A stretch of 64,000 nt of DNA from Bacteroidales bacterium (GTDB taxonomy: Bacteria; Bacteroidota; Bacteroidia; Bacteroidales; UBA10428): positions 1-64,000 of the forward strand of contig JAFGBD010000012.1 of assembly GCA_016933335.1 (NCBI GenBank), given 5' to 3'. How positions within the stretch are numbered: the stretch's first letter is position 1; the number at the start of each line of letters is the position of its first letter. This document shows positions 27,039 to 40,238 of the stretch, piece after piece. The position numbers and the translations under genes are program-made. The notes beneath the pieces are model-generated. The model saw only the letters and a list, made by a program, of their open reading frames with translations, was not told where the DNA came from and ran no database searches.

Positions 27039-27161
27039 GCGCTCGCCGGGATTCCTCAGTTAAAGTTTTATGTATCTGTAACAAACAAATAAGTTTTTAA
27101 AAACCTTAATTTTTCATTTTCTTTGCTAAACACAAATGCATATTATTGTACAGGTCAGTCA

Positions 27162-29039
27162 ATGAAAGCAGTTATTTTAGCAGGTGGTAAAGGAACCCGC
27201 CTGGCAGAATATACCAGGGAAATTCCCAAGCCCATGCTCCAGATCGGAGGTAAATCCATCCTTGAATACCAGATTGATATGCTCATTAAATACCAGGTTA
27301 AGGAAATTATCATCCTGGTGAATTATCTTAAAGATATCATCATCAACCATTTTGGTGACGGCAGCACTTATAACATCAGCATCAGGTATTTTGAAGAAGC
27401 CAGGCCACTGGGTACGGCAGGAGGACTGAAGGAGGTGGAAGAATGGCTGGAAGATGATTTCTTTGTGCTCTATGGCGATGTCATGATCAATATGGACCTG
27501 CAGCGGCTGGCAGATTACCATTTACAAAAAAAGAGCCAGTGTACCCTTGTACTGCATCCAAATAACCACCCCTACGACAGCGACCTGGTTGAAACAGATG
27601 CAGACGGCAGGATCATTTCCTTTCATCCTAAACCGCATGAAAACCTCTCGTATTACCATAACCTGGTGAATGCCGGGGTATATGTTTTCTCACCTGATAT
27701 TCTGAATTATCTTGAAAAAGGTACAAAAGCCGACTTCGGCAGGGAAGTTTTTCCGCGAATATTCAATGATCTGAGGATGTATGGCTATATCACTTCCGAA
27801 TACCTTAAAGATATGGGCACACCGGAACGGTGGGAGGAAGTCGGCAGGGATTACAAAACCGGAAAAATCTTTCAGTTCAATTATGAAAATCCGCAAAAAG
27901 CAATATTTCTTGACCGTGACGGTGTGCTGAATGTGGAAAGAAGCTTTATCAGCAGGCCTGAAGAACTTGAATTGTATGATTTCACGCCTGAAGCGATCCG
28001 TAAAATCAATGAATCGCATTATCTGACCGTTGTCGTCACCAACCAGTCGGTTATAGCGCGAAACCTCTGTTCGCTGGAAGAACTGGACCTTATTCATAAA
28101 AAACTGGAGACCGACCTGGGCATGCAGCATGCCTATCTTGACGCCTTGTACTTCTGTCCTCATCACCCCGACAAAGGTTATCCCGAAGAAAGGAAGGAAT
28201 ATAAAATAGACTGTGACTGCCGCAAACCCAGGCCGGGCCTTTTCCTCAGGGCAGCTAAGGACCTCAGTATCAGTCTGAATGAATCATGGATGATCGGAGA
28301 CTCCGAACGTGATATACAGGCCGGTATCAATGCAGGATGCCGGACCATTGGCGTGATGACCGGTTACGGTATTGCTGCTGCCGGTATACAGCCCGATTTT
28401 TTCTTTGCCGACCTGCTTGAAGCCGCCGACTTTATCATTCAGGATCCCTATCAGAAGAATTTTATTGAACTGAAAAAAAAGGTCGAATCGCTAAAAAAAC
28501 GACCGGTTATCTTTTCGGTGGCAGGTAACTCCAGGTCAGGAAAGACCAACTTTGTTTCATACCTGAATCTTTCTTTCAAAAAAAATGGCTACAGGATCCT
28601 GACAATTGATCTTGATAACTGGATCCTTCCGGAATCTGAAAGGAAGAGCTGCAAAAATGTGTATGACAGGTTTCAAAGCAGGAAAATAGAAGAGGATATC
28701 GCAAGACTTCTGGATGGTGAAACAATACAGGTACAAACTTACGTCAATCATCCGGAAAGGATTTCACAACCTGTTGAGTACAGTTTTCAGCAGGAAGATA
28801 TTGTCATCATTGACGGTATTGTTTCACTCGGACTCTATAAGATCCGCCAGATAACCGACATTAAAATATTTATGGACATCGATCTGCAGGTTCTCCGCGA
28901 AAGACTTGATAAATACTATTCATGGAGACAGAAGGGAAAAGATGAGATCGAACAGCTTTTTCAAAAAAGAAAAACCGATGAGTATCTTTTAATAGAAAAA
29001 GACCGTAAATTTGCTGACTTTATCATTAATGCAATTTAA
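27162..29039 (+). CDS. Three-domain fusion: sugar-1-phosphate guanylyltransferase (HddC-like), GmhB-type phosphatase and P-loop kinase
   Basis: From ATG 27162 the protein has 625 residues (a TTG at 27123 would extend it). Residues 1-235 are a nucleotidyltransferase (AVILAGGKGTRL, IPKPMLQIGGKSILEY, YGDVMINMD). Residues about 245-425 are a HAD-IIIA phosphatase like GmhB, with D251/D253 in FLDRDGVLN and zinc ligands in C332-P-H334 and C351-D-C353. Residues about 447-625 form a uridine-kinase-like P-loop domain with Walker A GNSRSGKT (455-462). Together with the next two genes this gives every step of GDP-D-glycero-alpha-D-manno-heptose synthesis; the kinase domain is extra and its substrate is unknown. 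Confidence 0.88.
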   Translation: MKAVILAGGKGTRLAEYTREIPKPMLQIGGKSILEYQIDMLIKYQVKEIIILVNYLKDIIINHFGDGSTYNISIRYFEEARPLGTAGGLKEVEEWLEDDFFVLYGDVMINMDLQRLADYHLQKKSQCTLVLHPNNHPYDSDLVETDADGRIISFHPKPHENLSYYHNLVNAGVYVFSPDILNYLEKGTKADFGREVFPRIFNDLRMYGYITSEYLKDMGTPERWEEVGRDYKTGKIFQFNYENPQKAIFLDRDGVLNVERSFISRPEELELYDFTPEAIRKINESHYLTVVVTNQSVIARNLCSLEELDLIHKKLETDLGMQHAYLDALYFCPHHPDKGYPEERKEYKIDCDCRKPRPGLFLRAAKDLSISLNESWMIGDSERDIQAGINAGCRTIGVMTGYGIAAAGIQPDFFFADLLEAADFIIQDPYQKNFIELKKKVESLKKRPVIFSVAGNSRSGKTNFVSYLNLSFKKNGYRILTIDLDNWILPESERKSCKNVYDRFQSRKIEEDIARLLDGETIQVQTYVNHPERISQPVEYSFQQEDIVIIDGIVSLGLYKIRQITDIKIFMDIDLQVLRERLDKYYSWRQKGKDEIEQLFQKRKTDEYLLIEKDRKFADFIINAI

Positions 29040-29041
29040 GG

Positions 29042-30031
29042 ATGATCATTTCCCGGACACCTTTCAGGATTAGTTTTGTAGGCGGCGGCTCAGACATGGA
29101 AACCTTTTATTCCAGGCACCGCGGGGCTGTCCTGAGCACCTCCATCAACAAATACATGTACATCTCCTCGCACAGGTTCTTCTTCCCGGATAAAATCCGC
29201 ATCAAATATTCACAGACAGAAACAGTGAATTCCGTTCAGGAACTTCAGCATCCCATCCTGCGTGAGACGTTGAAAAAGCTGAATATCCCGGGAGGAACAG
29301 AGATAAGCTCCATTGCTGATATACCTGCCGGAACCGGTATGGGCTCCTCTTCGTCTTTCACGGTCGGACTGCTGCATAATCTTTATGCAGTAAAACGGCA
29401 GTTTGTGACACACGAACAGCTGGCAAGAGAAGCATGTGAGATCGAGATCGGCCTGCTCAAGGAACCGATAGGTAAGCAAGACCAGTATGCTGTTGCTTTC
29501 GGCGGATTAAATGTCATCTCTTTCAATCCCGACGGTAGTGTCGTTGTTGAACCATTGTATATTAAAAATGAAGTTTATGAAGCATTGCAGGAAAACCTGC
29601 TTATGTTTTATACCGGTAATCAGCGCAAAGCTTCTGATATTCTGTCAGAACAGAAAAAAAATGCATCAAGGGAAGATAAGTTCAATATCCTGAAGTCGAT
29701 GGTGACCCTTGTATCTGATCTTAAAGAATGCCTGTACAATGAAAACCTTGATGATTTCGGAAAAATTCTGCATGAGAACTGGATCCTGAAACAAAAACTG
29801 GCAGCACATATCAGCAACAGCGAGATCGGGGAGATGTACAGGACAGGTTTGAAGAATGGTGCCACAGGGGGAAAGTTGCTCGGTGCCGGTGGCGGTGGTT
29901 TTATGTTATTCTACTGTGAAAAAAACAAACAAATGAAACTTACTGAATCGTTGAAACATTGCAGAAAATTTGATTTTGCTTTCGAACGCGACGGTTCAAA
30001 ACTTATTTATTTTGCCGATGAAAAATTCTGA
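29042..30031 (+). CDS. hddA: D-glycero-alpha-D-manno-heptose-7-phosphate kinase
   Basis: The 329-residue GHMP kinase begins MIISRTPFRISFVGGGSDM, with the ATP loop PAGTGMGSSSSF at about 95-106 and a C-terminal GGKLLGAGGGGFMLFY. These are typical of HddA, which phosphorylates C1 of heptose-7-phosphate. It starts 2 bp after the fusion gene's stop codon and overlaps gmhA by 14 bp, so the three genes form one operon. Confidence 0.92.
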   Translation: MIISRTPFRISFVGGGSDMETFYSRHRGAVLSTSINKYMYISSHRFFFPDKIRIKYSQTETVNSVQELQHPILRETLKKLNIPGGTEISSIADIPAGTGMGSSSSFTVGLLHNLYAVKRQFVTHEQLAREACEIEIGLLKEPIGKQDQYAVAFGGLNVISFNPDGSVVVEPLYIKNEVYEALQENLLMFYTGNQRKASDILSEQKKNASREDKFNILKSMVTLVSDLKECLYNENLDDFGKILHENWILKQKLAAHISNSEIGEMYRTGLKNGATGGKLLGAGGGGFMLFYCEKNKQMKLTESLKHCRKFDFAFERDGSKLIYFADEKF

Positions 30032-30626
30032 TTATACTGCCTATTTTGATAAAGTTGCAGCTACGCTTAAAAAGATTGACCAGGATATTCTTGAAAAACT
30101 GGTAAAGGTCATTCTTGAATGCCGCGACAGGGGTAATACCATTTATATCTTCGGAAACGGAGGAAGTGCCGCAACAGCCTCGCATGTCGCCGGTGATTTC
30201 ATGAAAGGTATCTCTTACCAGCTTGAAAAACGTTTCAGGGTAATATGTCTTTGTGATAATATTCCGGGTACATCTGCCATATCCAATGATCTCACCTATG
30301 AGGATGTTTTCATCGAACCCCTGAAAAGTTTTGTGAATAAAAACGATGTTGTGATCGGAATTTCAGGCAGCGGGAACTCGGTCAATGTTATCAGGGCATT
30401 GGAATACGCCGTCGCAAAAGGTGCAACTACTGTTGCCATGGTTGGTTATAAAGGAGGCAAACTCAAAGATACCGCCGACATCGTGGTTCATGTTCCCGTC
30501 GATGATATGGAGGTTGCAGAGGATATCCATCTTATCATTTTTCATGCCATAAAGCAAAGCATTAACCGTCTCTTAAAGGGAGACCATTATTCAATGGGAT
30601 CTAACTATGACCGGCGTGTGAAGTGA
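30018..30626 (+). CDS. gmhA: Sedoheptulose-7-phosphate isomerase
   Basis: From ATG 30018 (MKNSDYTAYF) the protein has 202 residues and overlaps the end of hddA; the longer alternative start inside hddA is unlikely. The SIS domain carries FGNGGSAATASH and GISGSGNSVNV, as in GmhA. It converts sedoheptulose-7-phosphate to D-glycero-D-manno-heptose-7-phosphate, the entry step for both GDP- and ADP-heptose. It ends 51 bp from the convergent family 9 glycosyltransferase gene. Confidence 0.93.
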   Translation: MKNSDYTAYFDKVAATLKKIDQDILEKLVKVILECRDRGNTIYIFGNGGSAATASHVAGDFMKGISYQLEKRFRVICLCDNIPGTSAISNDLTYEDVFIEPLKSFVNKNDVVIGISGSGNSVNVIRALEYAVAKGATTVAMVGYKGGKLKDTADIVVHVPVDDMEVAEDIHLIIFHAIKQSINRLLKGDHYSMGSNYDRRVK

Positions 30627-32619: not shown

Positions 32620-33720
32620 TTAAGGTTTGAAGATTGAACCGGTGACGGGTTCAAAGTACTTCTCGATAAATCCCTTTTTAGCATAGCACCATTCACTCTT
32701 ATGATTAAAATCCCTGTGTTTGGACCAGGCATCAAGCGGACACCCTCCATGACAGATCTCCCAGAAACGACATCCGGCACATTCCCCTTCCATTAATATC
32801 CTGTTTCTTTTCTCAAGCTGGTCTCTTTCCGGATGCCTGAGTATTTCGCTTATTTTGCTATCCCGGATATTACCATAATCGAGCAATTTCCAGTCAGATG
32901 ATCTTCCGCATTGCGAAGTATCGCCCTCGGGCGAAATGTTTATATGATGGTAGGTGCAGCTGCCTGAATCTACACAGGCCAGGCTTCTGTGACCATGTAT
33001 TATGTTATTCACAAGAGATTTGAATGGCTCTACATCCGGATAACGGTTCCGGTTTTCCCACCAGACCGGAAAAATTGCACCTAAAAACTCAACAAACTGC
33101 ACAGGAGTTACAGACAGGTATTTTCTCTCTTCATCATATATCAGAACAGGATTAAAATTAACACCTCCCGTCAGAAGGAAATTGGTTAAAAAATAAAACA
33201 CTCCCAGGGGATCTTTTAATGACATGCCGGTGACCACATATATCATTCCCCAGCCGATATCATATTTATCAAGTATTTTAAGTGCACGGATGAACTTTTT
33301 ATTATAGGATAATGTGTCAATGTTTTTACCCGGGCCACGCATATGAGGTTCCGGATCGTAACTGGTCCCGACACTTTTGATCCCCATGGCATTAAAAATG
33401 CTCACAAATTCTTCTGTGAAACAGGTAAGGTTTGTCTGGATGGAATGACTAATCCTGTTCCCGGTATCAGGACAATAATTTTTCTGAAAATCAATAATAT
33501 GCTTATAATAAGCTGCTCCCGGCAGCAATGGTTCACCTCCGTGCCACAGAAAATCCAGAGTTTCATCAGGATTATCAAGCAGGTATTCATTGGTTCTTTG
33601 AAACAGCAGCCTGATGATATCCAGTGACATGGTTTTTCCCGTGTTCTCTTTCCGGACGACATCACAATAACGGCAATTGGAATTGCACTTTTCTGTTACT
33701 TTTATAATTATGGTTGCCAT
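32620..33720 (-). CDS. Radical SAM/SPASM peptide-modifying protein
   Basis: The 366-residue protein has the radical SAM motif C12-x3-C16-x2-C19 (KCNSNCRYC), WHGGEPLLPG and a complete SPASM signature: C255-x10-G-x4-C271, then C314-x2-C317-x5-C323-x3-C327 and C345. It should bind one catalytic and two auxiliary 4Fe-4S clusters, as do sulfatase- and peptide-maturing enzymes of this class. Its ATG lies 13 bp inside the pseudo-radical-SAM gene. The lack of a sulfatase gene and the presence of a repeat peptide in the operon favour peptide modification. Confidence 0.93.
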   Translation of the reverse strand: MATIIIKVTEKCNSNCRYCDVVRKENTGKTMSLDIIRLLFQRTNEYLLDNPDETLDFLWHGGEPLLPGAAYYKHIIDFQKNYCPDTGNRISHSIQTNLTCFTEEFVSIFNAMGIKSVGTSYDPEPHMRGPGKNIDTLSYNKKFIRALKILDKYDIGWGMIYVVTGMSLKDPLGVFYFLTNFLLTGGVNFNPVLIYDEERKYLSVTPVQFVEFLGAIFPVWWENRNRYPDVEPFKSLVNNIIHGHRSLACVDSGSCTYHHINISPEGDTSQCGRSSDWKLLDYGNIRDSKISEILRHPERDQLEKRNRILMEGECAGCRFWEICHGGCPLDAWSKHRDFNHKSEWCYAKKGFIEKYFEPVTGSIFKP

Positions 33721-34580
33721 ATGAATTCTTCCTTTGTCGTGTTCTCTCTTTTCTTCAGATGCAGATCCACTGCCTCGAGAAATTCACTGAAAAAATCCCT
33801 GCAACCAGGATTATCTTTAATGGTATCTGCATATTTTCCAAGGCATATCCGCCAGCCTTTGCAGCAGGCACAGGGTGTTGGTTCCAGAAAGAATTCCTGC
33901 CACCGGTATAAATATTCCTTATAGGCTTTTTCCTGTGTAATACGGTCCAGCTTGTCAAGCTCCAGCAGGATACCGTTTACTGAATTCATTTGTTTACGGG
34001 AAAGAGCAAGCATACCCTCCCCGGTCAGATGAATGTATCTTGAAGCATCATCGAAGTACACAGCGCCATAATCAGTCCTGTTCTGCGGATGATAATAGCG
34101 GGTTACGTAACTGAAAGGTAATATCTCCCGGTGATTTACCACATTTAAAAGTGCATATGTCATCAGGTCTGTCAGTTCCTCCCAGTTCACTGTTTTACCA
34201 TTGATGATGACGGCACAATAATAACCCAGTGATGAGAGAATCCTGATATCCCGGTAACAATTCTCATAGTCAGTCCTGAAATAAAACCGGATATTGAGCT
34301 TCTTAATGACGGAAGCCATTTTCAGAAAACTGCTTAACCTGCCCAGCGAAGGAGATACAATGGCAATGGGGAACTTGCTCCATTCAGGTTTATAAATGAT
34401 ATCGGACAATGATTTTTTGGTTTCATATATGACACAGTGAATGTGTATATGATGATCCCTCGCATCAGACTCCAGGTCATACAGCTTCGAAAGACTGTCC
34501 AGAAAAAACACAACAGACCGGTCCCTGATACGTTTAAGAATTTTCGGGTTGTAATCACATACCAAAAAGTGTTCAGCCAT
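33708..34580 (-). CDS. Pseudo-radical-SAM protein (SPASM-like, no CxxxCxxC)
   Basis: From ATG 34580 (MAEHFLVCDYNP) the protein has 290 residues; the longer start at 34589 would be TTG. No CxxxCxxC cluster motif is present at the N-terminus, but the C-terminal part keeps a cysteine knot (C237, C239, C240, C246, C260 in TPCACCKGWRICLG and GCRDFF) like a reduced SPASM domain. I take it to be a non-catalytic partner, similar in concept to the pseudo-rSAM subunits described in Bacteroidales peptide systems. The start overlaps the preceding stop by 8 bp (ATGGCTGA) and its end overlaps the next gene by 13 bp. Confidence 0.75.
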   Translation of the reverse strand: MAEHFLVCDYNPKILKRIRDRSVVFFLDSLSKLYDLESDARDHHIHIHCVIYETKKSLSDIIYKPEWSKFPIAIVSPSLGRLSSFLKMASVIKKLNIRFYFRTDYENCYRDIRILSSLGYYCAVIINGKTVNWEELTDLMTYALLNVVNHREILPFSYVTRYYHPQNRTDYGAVYFDDASRYIHLTGEGMLALSRKQMNSVNGILLELDKLDRITQEKAYKEYLYRWQEFFLEPTPCACCKGWRICLGKYADTIKDNPGCRDFFSEFLEAVDLHLKKRENTTKEEFIWQP

Positions 34581-35595
34581 TTGATGCAAATTGATAGATT
34601 TCTTTCATTCTCACCGGATACTCATTCAGAAAACGGTTCAGGCTGTGCGCCTGGCATCCTCCCTTGCAGAGATCTTCTTCACGGTATTTGCAGTTGTCAC
34701 ATTCCTCATAAATCCCTCCTGATTCAACCCTGATCTTTCTGTGAATGTCTTCATAATAATCAAAAATTTCCCGGATGGAATTGAAGTCAAAGACCGACTT
34801 TTTATGAAAATCAGACAAAGGAAAACATGGCCAGAGGCTCATGTCGGGACCGATATCAATAACCGGGGCACACCCGAAATCATAATGACCCCCGGTATTC
34901 CGGTATAACCAGCCAAGCTGTTCATCGCTGAACCTGCAGAGCGGGAATCCGCAATCAAGACCGGGCTTTATCCTGAGCCGTTCCATCACCGGGACAAAAG
35001 AGTAAAACCTGTCTATGATCTTTTTGATGTCACCAGGCTGAATAAATTTATTCTTCTTCCCGGCAATAGGATGCGCAAGACCAACCCTGATAGTCCTGTT
35101 CAATCCGTATTCGTTTATATATTGAAAGATAAAACTTATATCGAAATCAAGCCTGTAAATATTAAAACCGGGGGTTATGCGTTCGCAGAAAGTACCCAGG
35201 AACCGTTTGATGCTCTCGGTTTCAGAAAGGCTCTGGGGTGTTGATTTCGGCTCGTTAAGATTAATGGTGAAAGATAACCTGTCAGGAGGAATACCGGAAA
35301 AAATGTTGCCTGCCTCACGAAGCTTGTCATCGCTCATAATACCGTTTGTAAAAACATTTATTCCGAAACCCCTTTCAAGAAGATATGCAATCATATCATT
35401 AAAATCGGGATGCAGTGTCGGTTCGCCACCCAGGATCTGAAATCTCTTTTCACCGGAAGTGGTGAAAAAATCAGCAAGATAAATCAGGTTTTCCCAGCTG
35501 ATGATGTCTGAAGGTGCGGAATCTGATAAATGCTTTTTGGCAAAACAATAAGGACATGACCTGTTACAGGTTTGTGTGAACAGAACATTAGGCAT
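34573..35595 (-). CDS. Radical SAM/SPASM protein, first enzyme gene of the peptide operon
   Basis: The 340-residue protein has C10-x3-C14-x2-C17 (TCNRSCPYCFAKK), the LGGEPTLHPDF motif and SPASM-like cysteines: CAPVIDIGPDMSLWPC, then C299-x2-C302-x7-C310-x3-C314 (CDNCKYREEDLCKGGC). It differs from the two downstream radical SAM paralogues (GGEPT rather than WHGGEPLL), so it belongs to a different subgroup. It starts 24 bp after the peptide gene and overlaps the pseudo-radical-SAM gene by 8 bp. The substrate is inferred to be the YxSx repeat protein. Confidence 0.92.
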   Translation of the reverse strand: MPNVLFTQTCNRSCPYCFAKKHLSDSAPSDIISWENLIYLADFFTTSGEKRFQILGGEPTLHPDFNDMIAYLLERGFGINVFTNGIMSDDKLREAGNIFSGIPPDRLSFTINLNEPKSTPQSLSETESIKRFLGTFCERITPGFNIYRLDFDISFIFQYINEYGLNRTIRVGLAHPIAGKKNKFIQPGDIKKIIDRFYSFVPVMERLRIKPGLDCGFPLCRFSDEQLGWLYRNTGGHYDFGCAPVIDIGPDMSLWPCFPLSDFHKKSVFDFNSIREIFDYYEDIHRKIRVESGGIYEECDNCKYREEDLCKGGCQAHSLNRFLNEYPVRMKEIYQFASNG

Positions 35596-35619: not shown

Positions 35620-36093
35620 CTATTTTCCGCTGGAGTAAGTACTTCCGTAACTACTATACCTTGAAGAACAATAATAACTGTAATAATAAAGACTACCCCG
35701 TCCGCTGCAATACTGGCTGTAGTAACCACTACTATATTTGCTGCTGTACTTGCTGCTGTAACTGCTGCTGTAACTGCTGCTGTAACTGCTGCTGTATCCA
35801 CTGTTGTATCCGCTGTTGTATCCGCTGTTGTAACTGCTGCTGTATCCGCCACTGCTGTAAGCACTGTTATAACCGCTGCTGTAACCGCTTCCATAACCGC
35901 TGTTATAAAGACTGGAGTACTGGTTGCTGGAATACCAGCTTGAATAGTATTCATCCTCATCAGGCTCACACCTGTTAAATACCAGCAGTGCCGTTCCGGA
36001 ACCTGCTGCAATCATCGCCATGCGCCTGATAGCTTCACGTCTTGATGTTTTTTTCTGATTGTTCGCGGATTTGCGTTGTTCTGAGTTTTTCAT
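35620..36093 (-). CDS. Tat-signal protein with Tyr-x-Ser-x tetrapeptide repeats (candidate modified peptide)
   Basis: The 157-residue protein begins with a twin-arginine signal (SRREAIRR, R18/R19) and a hydrophobic stretch to about residue 39, then C42 and an acidic spacer (EPDEDE). Residues 49-157 hold 30 tyrosines. From Y63 to Y79 and from Y84 to Y128 tyrosines recur exactly every four residues (YNSG, YSSG, YSSS, YSSK). C129 and C142 are the only other cysteines. Low complexity is not a translation artefact: the frame has a proper start, signal and stop, and is followed by five tightly packed genes. Three radical SAM enzymes and a GT9 enzyme probably act on it. No database family is recognised. 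Confidence 0.85.
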   Translation of the reverse strand: MKNSEQRKSANNQKKTSRREAIRRMAMIAAGSGTALLVFNRCEPDEDEYYSSWYSSNQYSSLYNSGYGSGYSSGYNSAYSSGGYSSSYNSGYNSGYNSGYSSSYSSSYSSSYSSKYSSKYSSGYYSQYCSGRGSLYYYSYYCSSRYSSYGSTYSSGK

Positions 36094-36293: not shown

Positions 36294-36695
36294 TTATTCT
36301 TTTCCCTTTTTCTGCTCTTTCTGCTCTCTTTCCTCTCTTTTCTGCTTCATGTCCATCATCTTTTCCATAAGGTCAGGAGCTTTCTCCAGCAATGTCTGTA
36401 AACCTTTCTTCTGGTCAGAAGGGATAAAATAAATCTCATCTCCCTTTGTAACCAGGAATCCCACAGGTGTGATGCCGATGCCTCCGCCTGCACCCACACC
36501 TTTTCCTTTGCCATGATGCCTTTTGTTCTCATCACCTTCTCCGTTACCTCCGCCATATCCCAGTCCGACTTTGATGACCGGCTTGCAGGTGAACTCTCCA
36601 AACTTGAATTCATCACCCAGTACAGTATCGGTTTTGGCAATGCCTTTCAGATTTTCGGATAATTTATCCAGTAACTGTTCAAAATTTGTTTCCAT
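36294..36695 (-). CDS. YtfJ/GerW-family protein
   Basis: The 133-residue protein has the family layout: an N-terminal helical part (FEQLLDKLSENLKG), then VLGDEFKFGEFTCKPVIKVGLGYGGG, a Gly/charge-rich insert (about 50-75), GVGAGGGIGITPVGFLV and a charged C-terminal tail. YtfJ (GerW) is a spore-associated protein in Bacillus, but homologues occur in non-sporulating bacteria, where the role is unclear. The DUF2953-like gene lies 12 bp upstream, repeating the ytfI-ytfJ pairing of Bacillus. Confidence 0.88.
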   Translation of the reverse strand: METNFEQLLDKLSENLKGIAKTDTVLGDEFKFGEFTCKPVIKVGLGYGGGNGEGDENKRHHGKGKGVGAGGGIGITPVGFLVTKGDEIYFIPSDQKKGLQTLLEKAPDLMEKMMDMKQKREEREQKEQKKGKE

Positions 36696-40102: not shown

Positions 40103-40238
40103 TGTTTTTACGAAGCTGTCTCAGAATTAGTGTAAATGTTTTTATGAAACTGTCTCAGAATTAATGTAAATGTTTTTACGAAGCTGTCTCAGAATTAATG
40201 TAAATGTTTTTACGAAGCTGTCTCAGAATTAGTGTATT
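40103..40238. repeat. Four tandem 34-bp repeats
   Basis: Units begin at 40103, 40137, 40171 and 40205, each exactly 34 bp and nearly identical (core GAAGCTGTCTCAGAATTA). A partial fifth unit runs into the dispersed repeat at 40244. The core resembles the terminal repeats of some Bacteroidota insertion sequences, but no transposase gene is present. The array lies in the gene-free stretch 40098-40541, right after the SRP RNA. Confidence 0.9.

Follow-up and report, generated by a model that had tools for sequence, protein, structure and literature searches.

Radical SAM maturation of peptides is known mostly from short substrates carrying a single modified motif or a few of them. Several described systems resemble the locus reported here. 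The triceptide maturases (XncB, OscB/GrrM, MscB, YxdB and YhhB) are SPASM-type radical SAM enzymes encoded beside precursors with aromatic-x-[D/N/S/R] motifs; according to an excerpt of PMC11002830, YxdB acts on Tyr-x-Asp, joining Tyr C3 to the Asp C-beta, and MscB acts on Phe-x-Ser, joining Phe C4 to the Ser C-beta, in both cases between residues i and i+2. His-Xaa-Ser (Hxs) loci combine an aromatic-x-Ser precursor with the paired radical SAM proteins HxsB and HxsC (Haft and Basu, as related in part of PMC9062424). The same partial source describes TvgA/TvgB, in which a single radical SAM enzyme acts again and again on a core of tandem short motifs to give poly-cyclopropylglycine. A search of the PMC literature found no paper on the present system, which may have been mentioned earlier in the triceptide landscape paper (Sugiyama et al. 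2022).

The window, which is the whole 64,000-nucleotide stretch analysed here, carries a six-gene operon in the order precursor, rSAM1, pseudo-rSAM, rSAM2a, rSAM2b and GT9 (Table 1). Successive genes are separated by 24, −17, −13, 12 and −23 bp, and the GC content of the operon is 0.431, compared with 0.420 for the window.

Table 1. Features of the Tyr-array locus, with positions in the window.
Feature	Position	Strand	Basis or remark
Tyr-array precursor, 157 aa, ATG start	35620..36093	minus	ORF and composition
Putative Tat-type leader, residues 17-42, SRREAIRRMAM...VFNRC, ends at Cys42, then acidic residues	35968..36045	minus	motif common to homologous precursors
Tetrad array Tyr-x-Ser-x, residues 59-130	35704..35919	minus	spacing, repeat and shuffle analysis
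C-terminal block YYSQYCSGRGSxYYYSYYCSxRYSSYxSTYSSG, two Cys	35623..35724	minus	alignment
rSAM1, radical SAM, 340 aa, C10-x3-C14-x2-C17, Cys-rich C-terminal region	34573..35595	minus	24 bp past precursor
Predicted pseudo-radical-SAM/SPASM protein, 293 aa, without CxxxCxxC	33708..34589	minus	17-bp overlap with rSAM1
rSAM2a, radical SAM/SPASM, 366 aa, full auxiliary-cluster Cys set	32620..33720	minus	profiles, alignment, model
rSAM2b, divergent second rSAM2 copy, 359 aa	31528..32607	minus	alignment
GT9-family glycosyltransferase, heptosyltransferase-like, 290 aa	30678..31550	minus	PF01075 44 bits, cutoff 22
Heptose-nucleotide genes: nucleotidyltransferase/GmhB-like/kinase fusion, HddA-like kinase, GmhA-like isomerase	27123..30626	plus	convergent with GT9

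The precursor consists of a Tat-like leader, a hydrophobic stretch up to Cys42, an acidic patch and a Tyr-rich tail of 109 residues. All 30 of its Tyr lie in this tail, residues 49–157 (at 49, 50, 54, 59, 63, 67, 71, 75, 79, 84, 88 and onwards to 120, then 124, 125, 128, 136–138, 140, 141, 146, 149 and 153). A preliminary description of the window had reported about 30 Tyr in 109 residues behind a twin-arginine signal, a four-residue Tyr register from 63 to 79 and from 84 to 128, and Ser at the third place of each tetrad. The count proved exact, and Ser is residue Y+2 at 26 of the 30 Tyr. The spacing of exactly 4 was reproduced from 84 to 128, with an extra Tyr at 125, while the first stretch (to 79) begins at 59 rather than 63. 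The longest run at this exact spacing comprises 12 Tyr, and 20 pairs of Tyr in the tail lie four residues apart; neither value was matched in 20,000 shuffles of the tail (0/20,000 for either). A twin-arginine leader and a precursor role were likewise supported: SRREAIRR at residues 17–24 is followed by the hydrophobic stretch, and the gene sits in a modification operon.

As had also been noted, the register appears in the DNA as a 12-bp periodic tract (35740–35902, 13.3 copies, 79% matches; Tandem Repeats Finder). Despite this tandem signal, synonymous codons vary in the tail (TAC 18 and TAT 12 for Tyr; AGC 24, AGT 15 and TCN 6 for Ser), indicating that the array is not merely a recent DNA expansion. 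Open reading frames on the plus strand and in shifted frames across the tract were dismissed as by-products of the same repeat. In Pfam and NCBIfam no family came near its cutoff with the precursor. The best conserved portion of the tail within the window's subgroup is the two-Cys C-terminal block, which in the alignment is kept in relatives from Gemmatimonadota, Syntrophaceae and Gammaproteobacteria (L016, L018, L081) and partly in L017. Elsewhere in the window a 34-bp tandem repeat (3.9 copies at 94%) occupies 40103–40236, and a GerW/YtfJ-like sporulation-family protein (61 bits against a cutoff of 116) adjoins the operon at 36294–36695.

Searching a species-representative genome collection with an rSAM1 profile yielded 70 loci, in which gene presence was scored with profiles built from the first five. 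rSAM1 was present in 66, rSAM2 in 45 and GT9 in 27; the 49 loci with both rSAM1 and the pseudo-rSAM are referred to as core loci. A leader-bearing tail protein occurs in 44 of the 70 loci and lies beside the enzymes in 41 of the 49 core loci, no precursor being found in the remaining 8 (the L027 precursor, cut by a contig end, was counted as present and left out of the statistics). rSAM2 was not found in six core loci (L041, L042, L044, L045, L057 and L047, whose contig ends early). By their record titles the loci are mostly from metagenome bins and span more than 10 phyla: Bacteroidota, Thermodesulfobacteriota, Myxococcota, Nitrospirota, Nitrospinota, Elusimicrobiota, Pseudomonadota, Ignavibacteriota, Chlorobiota, Gemmatimonadota, Spirochaetota, Armatimonadota and others. 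When ten precursors and six enzymes of the homologous loci were scanned against NCBIfam, no equivalog exceeded its cutoff, and the matches that did were generic (SPASM and one Tat signal).

The rSAM1 tree placed the window apart from other Bacteroidota, in a set supported at 98/97 that also holds one row each from Gemmatimonadota, Nitrospirota, Thermodesulfobacteriota and Ignavibacteriota. Within the order, 6 of 393 genomes matched the pseudo-rSAM profile, and within the phylum 5 of 395, the window's own genome being counted in each. The search turned up no close relative that carries the locus, which was absent from the one same-genus genome searched (G001). This rare, patchy, cross-phylum occurrence makes horizontal spread of the gene set likely, although single rows may reflect binning errors. 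Phage records gave no match, 18 pattern matches on viral contigs included no relative, and plasmids yielded a single distant rSAM1 relative (31.8%).

Other candidates were rejected on inspection. A second Tyr-like match in the window's own genome (C73) was an antisense low-complexity frame in the gene of an S1-domain-like protein; a match in G119 (8e-5) fell within a 666-aa open frame with no other operon gene; and of the split pseudo-rSAM matches in G626, G651 and G767, the one inspected (G651, L105) was a single short frame of 153 aa. Another contig of the same genome (C29, L015, 8469–11076) encodes an rSAM1 paralogue (32%) together with a small protein of 86 aa and a SPASM-like protein of 461 aa, and no Tyr-array ORF was found near the paralogue. 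Distant rSAM1 relatives also lie near other short peptides (L073:131–454, L075:2642–2794, L067:5994–6530) that have a K-rich YTKP-type start or are Cys-rich, some with terminal Tyr clusters; perhaps these are another precursor set for the same enzyme family. In L046 (12155–12868) and L054 (12913–13599) related proteins (35% identity) with no Pfam match directly follow the precursor and may serve as an extra maturation or processing factor.

The preliminary description had proposed each tetrad as one modification unit and had named, as evidence that would speak against this, homologues that share the operon without conserved tetrad spacing. Such homologues are what we found. We assembled 49 precursors including that of the window, picked first as Tyr-rich ORFs and then by leader alone, with starts set at the first in-frame ATG, GTG or TTG. 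Regular Tyr units recur in the set, and the tetrad persists throughout the cross-phylum subgroup of the window (L016, L017, L018), but it is not general: the spacing is 3 in most same-operon homologues, and 5, 6 (L047, L061, L063) or mixed (3/4/5 in L019) in others. The number of Y-x-S units also varies, with 26 in the window, 19 in L016, 12 in L017, 25 in L018, 15 in L081 and 50 in the mixed-spacing L019.

The residue at +2 from Tyr showed a broader regularity. Averaged over the 49 precursors with equal weight, it is S (0.295), N (0.266), Y (0.131) or D (0.128). Among the 46 with 8 or more Tyr in the tail (L034, L048 and L049, with fewer, were left out), the S/N/D share at Y+2 exceeded that at Y+1 in 41 and that at Y+3 in 37. 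We then permuted non-Tyr residues over non-Tyr positions, a pass meaning that at most 20 of 2,000 trials reached the observed count, and 30 of the 46 precursors passed. Many of the 16 that failed are dense-Tyr arrays in which S/N/D fill nearly all non-Tyr positions, and the densest, of the YNYYSY type, are uninformative on +2. L019 carries S at +2 for 50 of 54 Tyr despite its mixed spacing, L066 has N for 19 of 22 and L080 has D or N for 51 of 57. Exceptions are L028, where Arg is commonest at +2, and L047, L061 and L063, where S/N/D stand at +3. These three have period-6 arrays (GYGVSGDYVAN) with a four-residue aromatic-x-x-[S/N] motif. Both S versus N/D at +2 (5 changes; shuffled mean 11.8, 0/500 as low) and spacing 3 versus 4 (4 changes; 8.1 when shuffled) track the rSAM2 tree, a clustering that could come from inheritance alone. 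On this sequence evidence the recurring unit is Tyr-x-[Ser/Asn/Asp], and the fourth residue of the tetrad behaves as a spacer.

These data bear on whether the array is modified at all. It could be a low-complexity segment that stays unmodified and self-associates or acts as an adhesive, with [G/S]Y[G/S] sticker-like motifs, the enzymes acting elsewhere or on nothing but the leader or C-terminal block. The composition of the array is like that of Tyr/Gly/Ser/Asn low-complexity proteins, and the strong conservation of the two-Cys block relative to the rest of the tail in the window's subgroup would fit. In two Chlorobi loci, moreover, an Lcl-type domain is attached to the array (L064, 7615–8586, a Tat leader and Tyr array followed by Pfam Lcl_C; L105, 4269–5144, judged by eye), an arrangement in which the array may act as a stalk. 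However, the presence of enzymes beside the array in so many core loci (41/49) and a +2 residue that differs in step with the rSAM2 clade both argue against an unmodified segment, and we know of no +2 rule that sticker sequences need. We therefore consider an unmodified array improbable.

We then compared the radical SAM enzymes with characterized families. Across the first five loci, rSAM1 shows the highest conservation of the enzymes (mean column identity 69%, compared with 61% for rSAM2). rSAM2a passes the Pfam Radical_SAM and SPASM cutoffs. Among its best 25 NCBIfam matches listed, the nearest profiles, all below cutoff, are the anaerobic sulfatase maturase TIGR03942 (155.3 bits, cutoff 349.45), DynA (150 bits) and DarE (126 bits), and the next include the cyclophane maturases YhhB (95 of 445 bits), GrrM/OscB (80 of 310 bits) and AmcB. 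Since it scores far below the cutoffs of YhhB, GrrM/OscB, AmcB, FxsB and XyeB (best 95 bits), rSAM2a was not filed as a member of these families. Two sequence features of triceptide loci are found here, an adjacent SPASM maturase and an aromatic-x-X3 motif at i/i+2 (exceptions L028, L047, L061 and L063). rSAM2b retains CxxxCxxC and lacks Cys at rSAM2a positions 249, 255, 271 and 327; it sits on a very long branch of the rSAM2 tree (3.05 changes per column), and the second rSAM2 copy of L018 is without two of the same four SPASM Cys.

The closest solved structure to the rSAM2a model is anSME (Z 34.4; 31.7 for ChlB), with which rSAM2 shares the fold and the cluster Cys pattern. This similarity, TIGR03942 as top NCBIfam match and the Ser at +2 in the window would all be expected if rSAM2 were a sulfatase-maturase-like Ser oxidase that converts the +2 Ser to formylglycine. 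Many other loci, however, have Asn or Asp at +2, which cannot yield formylglycine. Formylglycine chemistry is further disfavoured by the residue after the auxiliary-cluster Cys, which is Gly in 36 of 39 rSAM2 rows and Asp in anSMEcpe (CDF); this Asp, D277, acts as the catalytic base of anSMEcpe. We regard this assignment as scarcely credible.

Radical SAM modification of the Tyr units is likely, and by analogy with the triceptide maturases a cyclophane is the best single guess for the product. Interchange of Ser, Asn and Asp exactly at i+2 from an aromatic residue is the expected trace of cyclophane formation at C-beta. The enzymes, possibly chiefly rSAM1, might install a different modification on Tyr or its neighbours, such as Tyr–Tyr or ether cross-links, Tyr hydroxylation or cleavage, or epimerisation, with the +2 residue as a recognition element only. 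Homologues with dense Tyr (L021–L023, L037), many of them adjacent or alternate, would suit such chemistry, as would the high conservation of rSAM1 and the ether cross-link made by DarE, one of the families nearest to rSAM2 (excerpt of PMC9055067). By itself, however, this explanation leaves the S/N/D swapping at +2 unaccounted for, and we consider it unlikely, if worth keeping in mind.

The 293-aa protein encoded between rSAM1 and rSAM2a matched no Pfam or NCBIfam family. Its AlphaFold model (pLDDT 93.1) gave weak Foldseek matches (best E 0.0055, PqqE; none with E <0.001). Realignment gave Z 14.0 with ChlB (9gmc; rmsd 4.4, 266 aligned) and Z 13.7 with anSME, in contrast to ∼5 for unrelated barrels. 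In a profile comparison, the Cys-rich end of the protein matched the rSAM2 SPASM region with 68% probability. CxxxCxxC is present in 0 of 40 aligned members, and four Cys close to the C terminus are kept in 38–39 of 40. From the modelled structure, the protein is best read as a radical SAM pseudoenzyme that has the fold without CxxxCxxC, and it probably serves as a leader-binding or scaffold subunit.

The leader motif RRxA[LI]xR is common to the precursors of homologous loci (broader form RRxA[L/I/M/F][K/R]); since the search pattern itself fixes the R and K/R positions, the conservation count is partly built in, and L017, L018 and L051 miss the strict pattern. The window precursor has the RR motif and hydrophobic stretch of a Tat substrate, and its genome encodes TatC on another contig. 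Of ten homologous precursors scanned with the NCBIfam Tat-signal model, only one matched (L043, 17.0 bits, cutoff 16.7), and the window precursor did not match the model. TatC was the commonest Pfam family among flanking proteins (4 of the 123 scanned from 154 listed ORFs, 31 being excluded by size limits), no other family occurring in more than 3 of the 123. In all four loci (L043, L052, L059, L062) TatC sits a short way downstream of the precursor or precursors, and in three (L052, L059, L062) a TatA-family gene lies just ahead of it. The adjoining TatA and TatC genes support export. Several precursors have a lipobox-like Cys (for example LEGC, IPGC, ITGC or LEAC), where the window has FNRC and others have AxA-type ends. 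A Tat and lipoprotein assignment of the window leader, with Cys42 as lipidation site, is possible, and the product is probably exported and may be located at the cell surface.

All 17 aligned GT9 rows share an invariant Gly-Asp (D21) and Asp (D202). GT9 is fused to rSAM2 in six loci (L032, L033, L034, L038, L039, L040) and to the pseudo-rSAM in three (L041, L042, L044). It may glycosylate the array, with a sugar as a possible further decoration. Could the main product be a glycoprotein, with GT9 placing heptose on array Ser or Tyr and the radical enzymes acting on the sugar or as accessories? Of the 49 core loci, 27 have GT9 next to the core genes or fused to them, and the heptose-nucleotide genes adjoin GT9 in the window. 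GT9 was, however, undetected in the other 22 (some contigs end early), and the heptose genes are not beside other loci: as a conserved part of the system they were rejected, one distant nucleotidyltransferase match being all that was seen. A mainly glycoprotein product thus appears very unlikely.

Our preferred reading, to which we assign a probability of about 0.55, is a maturation system for an exported Tyr-array protein in which rSAM2 would make Tyr-x-[S/N/D] cyclophanes and GT9 might add a sugar. The chemistry, the order of steps and the division of labour that follow are our best reading. The maturation enzymes would read the precursor leader, [S/T]RRxA[L/I]KR[I/M]A, with the pseudo-rSAM probably binding it or holding the complex as a scaffold. 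rSAM2 would join the Tyr ring to the C-beta of the +2 residue (Ser in the window, Asn or Asp in other clades), giving a chain of three-residue cyclophanes, with as many as 26 in the window. Further modifications would come from rSAM1 and the divergent rSAM2b, and GT9 may attach sugar to array hydroxyls. This rigid product would leave via the Tat pathway and remain in the envelope, anchored by lipid in precursors that have a lipobox-like Cys. More tentatively, and with rather less confidence than the cyclophane system itself, the whole mature chain might become a continuous string of tens of cyclophane units, a rigid and possibly glycosylated, lipid-anchored rod or stalk of the envelope. This would be a Tat-secreted structural biomaterial found across phyla, as opposed to a small secreted peptide, and in some hosts a dedicated TatAC would export it in folded form.

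Provided that the modification is real, the system would provide a genetically encoded, tunable cyclophane polymer with the unit Tyr-x-S/N/D and a variable spacer. It also offers a direct test of the role of a pseudo-radical-SAM protein and of Tat export of radical-SAM-modified products. The comparison with known systems shows both kinship and distance. Triceptides share the SPASM enzyme beside an aromatic-x-X motif, here Tyr-x-[S/N/D]. Unlike them, and in contrast to short-peptide maturation in general, the present substrate is a long protein with a Tat leader and, in the window's subgroup, 12–50 units, occurring in more than 10 phyla and mostly in metagenome bins. The enzymes differ too, with two radical SAM kinds, a conserved pseudo-rSAM partner, a glycosyltransferase that some loci carry as a fusion with the core, and Tat genes beside some loci. 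Compared with Hxs, Tyr takes the place of His, rSAM2a scores 56 bits against the HxsB cutoff of 370, and the HxsA, HxsC and HxsD models were not among the best 25 matches listed per protein for the eight proteins scanned. TvgA/TvgB differs in its Val chemistry, motif and operon. DynA and DarE make antibiotic peptides, and rSAM2a falls below their cutoffs (450 and 650 bits). From anSME, rSAM2 is set apart by Gly in place of Asp after the auxiliary-cluster Cys and by the Asn or Asp at +2 in other loci. Taken together, the system is placed as a variant of radical-SAM repeat-peptide systems, and there is a real chance that it forms a new class.
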